Shown here one piece after another: positions 5,793 to 14,190 of a stretch of DNA of 33,374 nucleotides. The position numbers were made by a program, and so were the translations under genes. The stretch lies in NCBI GenBank assembly GCA_020721605.1, contig DYML01000016.1, positions 1-33,374 on the forward strand, read 5' to 3'. Below the pieces are notes generated by a model. It was given only the letters and a program-made list of their open reading frames with translations. It did no database searches and had not been told where the DNA came from. This stretch comes from Anaerolinea thermophila. Lineage in GTDB: Bacteria > Chloroflexota > Anaerolineae > Anaerolineales > Villigracilaceae. The number at the start of each line of letters is the position of its first letter. Positions within the stretch are counted from its first letter, which is position 1.

Positions 5793-5830
5793 ATAAAAGC
5801 GGCATCTCGCTAGTGAGATGCCGCTTTTAT
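5793..5830. terminator. Bidirectional intrinsic terminator between convergent genes
   Basis: Perfect 16-bp stem ATAAAAGCGGCATCTC / GAGATGCCGCTTTTAT with 6-nt loop GCTAGT; A/T-rich at both ends. Confidence 0.85.
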
Positions 5831-8357: not shown

Positions 8358-8394
8358 AAAAATCTCCGAAGCCATAAAGACTTCGGAGATTTTT
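8358..8394. terminator. Bidirectional intrinsic terminator
   Basis: Stem AAAAATCTCCGAAG (8358-8371) / CTTCGGAGATTTTT (8381-8394), 9-nt loop. Confidence 0.85.
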
Positions 8395-11328: not shown

Positions 11329-12114
11329 ATGATTCCCTCAAATATAAAAGCACTTATTCTGGATATGGATGGCGTTATATGGAAGGCAGATGCGCCAATT
11401 GGAAATCTGCCTCAAATCTTCGCCCGTATTCGCCAGCGCGGACTAAAATTTATTTTTGCCACCAACAACGGCACAAAAACCCCCGAAGACTATCAACAGA
11501 AGTTACAAGACCTGGGCGTGAGTATTGATCCCGCACAAGTTGTTACCTCGGCTTTGGGGCTTGCTTTTATGCTTTCGCAAAAATACCCCAAAGGAACAAA
11601 AATATTTATGATCGGCGGCGATGGTGTACGAATCGCGCTGGAAGAAAAAGGATTTAAAATCTTAAGCGTAGAAAATGCATCCGAGGCACAAGTCTTTGTC
11701 ATGGGCATTGACCGGGAAATCAATTTCCAAAAAATTGCCGAAGCGGCTCTGTTGGTGCGGGCTGGAATCCCATTCTACACAACCAACACAGATCGCACCT
11801 TTCCCACGCCGCGCGGAGAAATTCCAGGGTCGGGCGCTTGGGTTTCGGTCATTGAAACAGCAACGGGCGTATCTCCCATTATTGCCGGCAAACCTTTTCC
11901 GTATTTAATGGAACTCTCTCTCGAAAGACTCGGAACCAAAAGAGAAGAAACCCTCATCGTTGGAGACCGTCTTGAAACCGACATCGCAGCCGGGCAAAGC
12001 GTTGGTTGCCCAACTGCGTTGGTTCTAAGCGGGGTTTCATCCAAAGCGCAAGCAGAAGCCTGGATACCGACACCAACAATCATCGCCGAAAATTTAACCA
12101 CACTGGTTCGATAA
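11329..12114 (+). CDS. HAD-IIA family hydrolase (NagD/PGP-like)
   Basis: 'LILDMDGVIWKADAPI', 'FATNNGTKTPEDYQQKL', 'AGKPFPYLMELSLERLGTKREETLIVGDRLETDIAAGQSVG'. Confidence 0.95.
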   Translation: MIPSNIKALILDMDGVIWKADAPIGNLPQIFARIRQRGLKFIFATNNGTKTPEDYQQKLQDLGVSIDPAQVVTSALGLAFMLSQKYPKGTKIFMIGGDGVRIALEEKGFKILSVENASEAQVFVMGIDREINFQKIAEAALLVRAGIPFYTTNTDRTFPTPRGEIPGSGAWVSVIETATGVSPIIAGKPFPYLMELSLERLGTKREETLIVGDRLETDIAAGQSVGCPTALVLSGVSSKAQAEAWIPTPTIIAENLTTLVR

Positions 12115-12286: not shown

Positions 12287-12318
12287 ATGCTTTCGATAAG
12301 TATTATTATCGAAAGCAT
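12287..12318. repeat. Perfect 13-6-13 bp palindrome, dif-like site candidate
   Basis: ATGCTTTCGATAA - GTATTA - TTATCGAAAGCAT. Arms end inward in ATAA/TTAT around a 6-bp centre, as in Xer dif sites; lies directly 5' of a tyrosine recombinase gene. Confidence 0.85.
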
Positions 12319-12345
12319 TGACAAGGATAAGAAAATCTATATAAT
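12318..12345 (+). promoter_or_regulatory. Consensus sigma70-type promoter for the recombinase
   Basis: TTGACA (12318-12323), 16-bp spacer, TATAAT (12340-12345). Overlaps the palindrome by one base. Confidence 0.7.
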
Positions 12346-13375
12346 GAGCGGTATGACCGATGTGCCACATCCATCCCCGACTATTTCTGAAGTGATAACC
12401 AGTTATTTGCGCATGGTGGAGCGCGCACGCAGCAAACACACCATGCTTGCGTATAAAACCGCTTTACATGTTTTTAGTAACCTTTTAGAAAAAAAATCCC
12501 TCCACCCTAATTTCACCCCCATTGAAAAATTAACCGAGGATTCCTTTGCGAAATTTGTAGACTATCTCAACATCTACTCCACTGCCACCGAACAATTATA
12601 TTTGCAAGCGATCAAAGGCTTTTACTTGTACGCTGATTCGGAAAAACTAATTGATATAAATCAGTCTCGCTTAATTGTGCTGATACGACAACGCTCACGC
12701 CGCGCAGGAACCCGTCTGCCGCAGTTCCCTGTTAATGATATTGAGACGCTTTTGGAAAGTATGCAAGACGTTAGCAGCCTAAAAACTTCAATTTCCAGCG
12801 AAGATGAGGCATTCAATAATAATCTACGCGCATATCGCGATCGTGCCTTTATCATCACCCTGGCAGACACGGGATTCCGCGTTCATGAAGCCTGTAATCT
12901 TCGGCGCGGCGATATTGACTGGAACGAAGGACGGGCGGTCATTATTGGCAAAGGGAATAAGCAGGCTGTCGTTCGTTTTACTGCGCGTTCTTTGCAAGCC
13001 ATAAAAGAATATTTAGCGCAACGCGCCATATTGGATGGAAGTTCGGGAAAGCAACTCAGTTCACTGCCTCTTTTTGCCCGTCACGATAAAGGCGCTGGCA
13101 AAAAGATAAAACCAATGACCCCCACCACCGGGCGTAATATTATTAAAGAGCGTGTGAGACAATTTTTAGGAGACGAAAAAATTGGGAACATTACCCCTCA
13201 CTCCTTCCGACACTATTTTGTCACGTCAGTTTTACGCGGCACGGGGAATTTGCGTATTGCGCAAGAACTTGCGCGGCATAAGAATATTCAGGTGACACAA
13301 AGATACACGCATCTTTCAGATGATGAGTTGGACAAGGCGTACTATGAAGTGTTTGAAAAAAAATCAAAACATTAA
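12344..13375 (+). CDS. Tyrosine recombinase (Xer/phage-integrase family)
   Basis: SAM-like N-terminal core-binding domain; catalytic 'TDTGFRVHEACNLRRGDID', 'HSFRHYFVTSVLRGTGNLRIAQELARHKNIQVTQRYTHL' (R, HxxR, H, Y present). Start could be 12344 or 12353. Confidence 0.93.
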   Translation: MSGMTDVPHPSPTISEVITSYLRMVERARSKHTMLAYKTALHVFSNLLEKKSLHPNFTPIEKLTEDSFAKFVDYLNIYSTATEQLYLQAIKGFYLYADSEKLIDINQSRLIVLIRQRSRRAGTRLPQFPVNDIETLLESMQDVSSLKTSISSEDEAFNNNLRAYRDRAFIITLADTGFRVHEACNLRRGDIDWNEGRAVIIGKGNKQAVVRFTARSLQAIKEYLAQRAILDGSSGKQLSSLPLFARHDKGAGKKIKPMTPTTGRNIIKERVRQFLGDEKIGNITPHSFRHYFVTSVLRGTGNLRIAQELARHKNIQVTQRYTHLSDDELDKAYYEVFEKKSKH

Positions 13376-14190
13376 ATAGGTTCACAACGGCTTTCAATGT
13401 AATTTGCATACGCCCGCATCAACTTTTTCGTCCAGTCCCCCACTTGCCCCTGCCCTACCGGGTTTTGGCTAATAGAAATAATTGGCACAATACCGCGCGA
13501 ACTGGATGTAAGAAATGACTCGTCAAATCTCTGGCTGAGAACTGGTGCGCGGTATTCGATGGACATCCCCTGCCCTCGCGCCAGGCGCAAGACAACACGG
13601 CGTGTAACCCCAAGTAAAATTCCACTGCGGGCGGTAATGAGTGTACGCTCTTTGATTGCATAAAAATTAGAAGTCATGCCCTCCAAAATTTTTCCGTGGT
13701 GTGTTAATAAAACTTCAAAAATAGCCCCTTGCACTAATTTTCTTTGCTCCACGCTCTTGGTGATAAAATCTGTACCTTTTACGCGTGGAGCGCCGCGCGC
13801 AATATTGGCGCTAATGACCTGCACCCCATCTCGATAAACTGCTTCTGGCAGTGGGCTAAAAGGTTGAATACCGATATATATCGCTCCATCGTGTTTGGTT
13901 AGAATTAAGCGAACACGCGATTCATCTGGCAGGTTTATCTTTACGAGGCTGGCAACTTGAGCTCTTAGCGCCGCCTCATTTACTGCGGGGTTCAGCCCTA
14001 TCTCTGCTGCGGGATGGTACAGCCTGCGTAAATGCGCCGATAGACCTAAAACTTTTGTTCCGCCTGCAAGCGTGCTAAAAGTTGTGTAAAACCCGTAGGG
14101 CAGTCCGCGTGTCATTTCATCAAGTGTGCCTGCCTGTGTGGAGAACGGCACAATGCTCAGGCGAGTAATTTTATAGGCAATTATGCTCAT
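13372..14190 (-). CDS. Class IV PLP aminotransferase (branched-chain aminotransferase / aminodeoxychorismate lyase-like)
   Basis: 'TDFITKSVEQRKLVQGA' (candidate PLP Lys), 'GKILEGMTSNFYAIKERTLITARSGILLGVTRRVVLRLA'. Exact start uncertain. Confidence 0.88.
   Translation of the reverse strand: MSIIAYKITRLSIVPFSTQAGTLDEMTRGLPYGFYTTFSTLAGGTKVLGLSAHLRRLYHPAAEIGLNPAVNEAALRAQVASLVKINLPDESRVRLILTKHDGAIYIGIQPFSPLPEAVYRDGVQVISANIARGAPRVKGTDFITKSVEQRKLVQGAIFEVLLTHHGKILEGMTSNFYAIKERTLITARSGILLGVTRRVVLRLARGQGMSIEYRAPVLSQRFDESFLTSSSRGIVPIISISQNPVGQGQVGDWTKKLMRAYANYIESRCEPI

Follow-up and report, generated by a model that had tools for sequence, protein, structure and literature searches.

A probable single-recombinase Xer/dif module in the Anaerolineales

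A dif-like site adjoining a tyrosine recombinase gene

The window analyzed here, the whole 33,374-nucleotide stretch of Anaerolinea thermophila DNA, harbors a dif-like site on the forward strand at 12287-12318, where the perfect 13-bp arms ATGCTTTCGATAA and TTATCGAAAGCAT flank the 6-bp center GTATTA. A first-pass annotation had described just such an inverted repeat, and this part of it held. With an 11+6+11 core at 12289-12316 and ATAA/TTAT inner ends, the site meets the dif format of about 28 bp with two 11-bp arms and a 6-bp center. The center itself (12300-12305, forward strand) is asymmetric and conserved across orthologue loci, and by analogy with dif anatomy we presume it to be the strand-exchange region. 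Of 100 shuffles that preserved the dinucleotide content of the window, 1 contained a perfect 13-bp inverted repeat with a spacer of 0-10. A search for further copies of the palindrome, as the annotation had proposed, found none elsewhere in the window or the 3.2-Mb genome assembly (a second match was the identical place on the other strand). The remaining perfect inverted repeats of the real window resemble hairpin or terminator repeats. Two of these, at 5794-5830 and 8359-8393, are intergenic and look like ordinary terminators.

A sigma-70-like promoter (12318-12345, forward strand) directly follows the site, composed of TTGACA (12318-12323), a 16-bp spacer and TATAAT (12340-12345). The right arm ends on the first base of TTGACA, and from this contact between the arm and the -35 box we infer that the recombinase gene may be autorepressed. 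The recombinase start lies 34 nt beyond the site and 7 nt past the -10 TATAAT, and close relatives likewise have TTGACA-N16-TATAAT with an ATG about 7 nt on. Given so short an interval in a conserved promoter, it is possible that the recombinase message is leaderless, although this is an inference.

The gene encodes a Xer-type tyrosine recombinase of 340 aa (12353-13375, forward strand), assigned by Pfam and orthologue alignment, which together with its orthologues we refer to as group A. The annotation had correctly placed a tyrosine recombinase of about 340 aa, ending at 13375, 3' of the palindrome. One correction concerns the start: the ATG at 12287 is inside the palindrome and does not begin the gene, since the orthologues align from 12353. 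Upstream of the site is a HAD-family hydrolase gene (11329-12114, forward strand), which is context and stands outside the proposed mechanism. Downstream, a class IV aminotransferase gene (13372-14190, reverse strand) is a conserved neighbor that served as a locus marker for the group A modules and for the group B modules described below.

The group A recombinase

Pfam detected a Phage_integrase domain (102.6 bits) and a SAM-like N-terminal domain, and no further domains in the recombinase. The catalytic residues are intact: R176, K200, H283, R286, H309 and Y318 are all present and are invariant in 32 aligned sequences, whose orthologues share 50-76% identity with the window protein, so that the R-K-H-R-H-Y criterion of a Xer-type tyrosine recombinase is met. 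By the score tests that we ran, the protein falls outside the XerC, XerD, XerA and XerS families, as it did not reach the NCBIfam cut-offs for XerC (TIGR02224, 142 bits vs 335), XerD (TIGR02225, 132 bits vs 330), archaeal XerA (NF040815, 136 bits vs 220) or XerS (NF003462, 68 bits vs 267). The XerC and XerD equivalog cut-offs are strict, being passed by just 2 and 4 of 14 control genomes, respectively. The closest solved structures by sequence are archaeal XerA (71.7 bits), then XerD and XerH; the XerH value (5jjv, 36.8 bits) rests on the structure sequence only, without a XerH model. Archaeal XerA was again the closest solved structure by fold. Whole-chain TM-scores were low because the AlphaFold model (mean pLDDT 83) had a pTM of 0.62 and poor confidence around the tyrosine.

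Group A orthologues were found in most of the Anaerolineales genomes examined and in most families sampled, and the gene is single-copy in most relatives of the order. It is neighbored by trigger factor, ClpP and HAD genes, with no element genes adjoining. In an independent genome collection, group A proteins accounted for most of 78 loci, nearly all labeled Anaerolineales, Anaerolineae or Chloroflexi. At a strict profile threshold, 121 genomes drawn from across the phylum gave clear members solely in the window's own family; this draw included few other Anaerolineales genomes.

Conservation of the site across orthologues

The annotation had proposed comparing the palindrome upstream of orthologous recombinases, and its conservation there favors the earlier interpretation. 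A matching site, called when at least 19 of 28 positions agreed, was found upstream in 74 of 82 distinct orthologue loci. The near-fixed positions are GnTT..GATAA in the left arm, GTA..A in the center and TTA in the right arm, while right-arm positions 23, 24 and 27 vary and the left arm is better conserved than the right. Across the center, the consensus base was counted as G in 70, T in 72, A in 66, T in 50, T in 55 and A in 72 of the 74 sites. In many distant relatives the site is present without a TTGACA following it, and the distance from site to start codon ranges from about 32 to more than 400 nt. Since the site persists without TTGACA and at varying distance, promoter function does not account for its conservation.

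A site of this kind would be expected once per chromosome, a criterion that was met in the window genome assembly and in relatives. When 101 relatives were searched with up to 3 mismatches, 38 genomes had one gene-linked site, within about 440 nt upstream; unlinked matches were few, and a reversed control pattern gave 1 match. The linkage of site and gene and the conservation of the site are thus shown by sequence. In two genomes (G012 and G016; loci L010, L102, L015 and L041) the orientation of the site is flipped relative to the gene with the arms kept. We also observed additional dif-like palindromes at a distance from the recombinase gene, with identical or almost identical arms but different centers, in L268 at about 9714 (G022:C6:418714), L269 at about 9841 (G022:C17:17841) and L270 at about 5879 (G082:C75:5879). 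It is possible that these mark integrated elements.

Copies of the site in phages

The arm pattern TTTCGATAA-N6-TTATCGAAA matches 16 IMG/VR virus contigs, and 10 of the 15 contigs with readable flanks also match the host site at its outer G and C (counted by eye). One virus site (L236) equals a same-genus host site (L016) across the 28-bp core. An integrase domain is absent from 14 of the 16 contigs, which may be fragments, and in one contig carrying terminase, portal and head genes the site lies between the portal and head genes. These copies fit the pattern of elements that borrow the Xer system of their host, with the hosts here being inferred and not verified. A search of 101 relatives with the portal protein of one mimic-bearing phage, intended as a prophage link, found nothing, and had no positive control. 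In virus contigs L239 and L248, a host-like site is accompanied by a phage-encoded tyrosine recombinase (L274 and L275) that falls outside groups A and B in the tree.

Position at the replication terminus

A dif site is expected at the replication terminus, and the annotation had suggested checking whether the locus lies at the GC-skew inversion, a check that we regard as the decisive one. The placement comes from relatives and not from the fragmented window genome: in three complete genomes (G020, G025 and Pelolinea submarina, G102), cumulative skew over 400 kb around the locus peaked at 2431811, 2386059 and 2055557, with the sites at 2433007, 2387040 and 2044176, or 1.2 kb, 1.0 kb and 11.4 kb from the peak, respectively. 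Sampled genome-wide, the skew in all three switched from positive to negative at the locus. The terminus position is thus shown for these relatives. In the window the skew follows the same trend, with a maximum near 6.4 kb, about 6 kb off the site. A weaker test, confounded by gene orientation, compared flanks at 43 loci: the 5-kb stretch preceding the site had a mean skew of +0.026 and was more G-rich than the flank beyond the gene, at -0.018 (Wilcoxon p = 0.0006). We had also tried dnaA as an origin proxy, but its distance was inconsistent, spanning about 0.16 to 0.45 of the circle, and it was replaced by direct GC skew.

These data bear on two other readings of the locus. The first is that the palindrome is only a transcriptional operator, bound by a regulator or by the recombinase, and not a recombination site. 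In its favor, TTGACA directly adjoins the right arm, and close relatives conserve both the promoter and the start 7 nt past the -10. However, the persistence of the site in distant orthologues without TTGACA, at distances of 32 to more than 400 nt, speaks against it, and an operator would predict neither a position at the skew switch, nor copies in phages, nor a conserved asymmetric center. We therefore rejected the operator-only reading, which seems very unlikely, on the grounds that the site is retained where the promoter is absent and lies at the point where the skew changes sign.

The second is that the gene is a mobile-element integrase and the palindrome its attachment site. Tyrosine recombinases beside att sites are common in mobile elements. 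Against this, the gene is a single copy among chromosomal core neighbors in most relatives of the order, all three complete genomes tested place the locus at the terminus, and the same site and gene are conserved in genomes that share no element. Element integration, which the annotation had offered as one option, does not fit this gene given its order-wide single-copy occurrence beside trigger factor, ClpP and HAD genes, and we rejected this reading as all but excluded.

FtsK and candidate partner recombinases

Two ORFs of the window genome contain an FtsK_gamma domain above the cut-off, so the presence of an FtsK with a gamma domain is shown by sequence. G-rich heptamers converge on the site: GGTGGGG, for example, points toward rather than away from it 125 vs 27 times over the three complete genomes (54:9, 41:13 and 30:5 per genome), a polarity that is partly a by-product of GC skew. 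The known KOPS sequence GGGNAGGG is skewed in G020 and G102 and not clearly so in G025.

The annotation had named a canonical XerC/XerD pair as a possible refutation, and no separate pair is evident. By profile score, the XerD cut-off was reached in none of 101 genomes and the XerC cut-off in none of 17 selected genomes. A few other families contain a XerD-like protein scoring 285-306 bits, whereas all others score at most about 210 bits; as the cut-offs are strict, the absence of a pair rests on this score gap. In one genome (G099) the group A protein was the one tyrosine recombinase detected, but this is an incomplete draft in which the group A match holds one in-frame stop. The complete genome G097 encodes two, group A and one weak match. 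The lack of a second Xer is supported by the score gap and by these near-empty genomes, but it is not proven.

A third reading is a two-recombinase system, in which the group A protein and an unlinked tyrosine recombinase each bind one arm, as XerC and XerD do. The better conservation of the left arm is consistent with this, and most genomes encode further tyrosine recombinases of mobile type, several in most cases, one of which could be the partner. Yet the arms of the window site are perfectly symmetric, G099 and G097 offer respectively no partner and one weak match, the genomes examined showed no other recombinase that is comparably conserved, and XerS acts alone but nevertheless prefers one half-site (PMC5357621). 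We consider a two-recombinase system unlikely.

A second module at the same locus

Same-genus genomes without group A often carry a group B recombinase, about 37-45% identical, which forms one fully supported clade in the tree. A dif-like site distinct from that of group A, ATCATTSRATATAA-N6-TTA..., precedes most B genes and comes in two right-arm types. B adjoins the same aminotransferase as A, often with the same 816-aa protein and kinase genes. Two genomes have both recombinases and one clear site. In G051, B is intact and has a B site, and the A copy that follows lacks an A site, has H in place of a catalytic arginine and has lost the GKG lysine motif; G042 has A with an A site followed by B without a clear B site. 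We infer that these are stages of in-place replacement. A bolder reading, which we consider as likely to be wrong as right, is that in one genus the whole module, recombinase and site, was swapped in place at the terminus, with group B (left arm ATTCGATATAA or ATTSAATATAA) taking the place of group A (TTTCGATAA arms). As part of this reading, site-bearing phages may add to the pressure on dif specificity to change.

Several modules of both groups have a small GIY-YIG-like ORF, scoring under the Pfam cut-off, directly 3' of the recombinase (L266:7126-7578 and L267:6771-7142, both on the reverse strand, and also L048, L114/L263, L255 and L256). It is possible that it aids module exchange.

Discussion

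We propose that the site and the group A gene very likely form a self-contained, single-recombinase Xer/dif module for chromosome dimer resolution. This is inferred from sequence without data on binding, cleavage or recombination. The first-pass annotation had suggested a single-Xer/dif module; this is supported, the refuting tests that could be run were all favorable, and its chromosome-resolution option fits. In the proposed mechanism, replication would leave sister chromosomes joined as a dimer, and the two copies of the site would meet at the division septum as FtsK translocates along G-rich polar sequences that point toward the terminus. Each of the four near-identical arms would then be bound by a copy of the one recombinase. 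Its catalytic tyrosine, Y318, would cut at the borders between arms and center, and strand exchange across the 6-bp center via a Holliday junction would resolve the dimer into two monomers. Binding, cleavage, action without a partner and control by FtsK are all inferred.

Chromosome dimer resolution is near-universal, and few lineages are known to have a single-recombinase version of it. A linked module that occurs order-wide and has almost perfectly symmetric arms offers a simple substrate on which to study how one recombinase determines the order in which strands are exchanged. The occurrence of two modules with different sites at one locus makes the evolution of dif specificity directly testable, and the site provides a terminus marker for Anaerolineales genomes.

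The known single-recombinase systems are XerS, XerH, XerA and XerL. We found no description of such a module in Anaerolineae in the open-access literature searched, and a broad dif survey predicted sites within this phylum only for Dehalococcoides (PMC3025954). Like XerS/difSL of streptococci and lactococci, the Anaerolineales module appears to rely on a single recombinase and has a site that adjoins the gene at the terminus (PMC5357621), but difSL has an 11-bp center and imperfect arms whereas the site here has a 6-bp center and near-perfect arms. XerH/difH of Campylobacter and Helicobacter also pairs a single recombinase with a nearby site (PMC5357621, PMC9765430); its site differs, and the similarity to the solved XerH is weak (36.8 bits, against 71.7 for XerA). 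XerA/dif of archaea, again with a single recombinase, includes the nearest solved structures and is linked in some archaea (PMC5357621), but XerA is reported to be FtsK-independent whereas FtsK gamma is present in the window genome. XerL/dif of the Legionellales is likewise a single-recombinase system, with a dif that is mimicked by a mobile element (PMC9765430), although in L. pneumophila dif and xerL are >400 kb apart while the Anaerolineales site and gene are adjacent. KOPS are polar toward the site, as are the heptamers here, though GC skew contributes to the latter. Finally, the module resembles XerC/XerD-dif in having a 28-bp site at the terminus, built as 11+6+11 with ATAA/TTAT inner ends, and differs from it in apparently relying on one recombinase.
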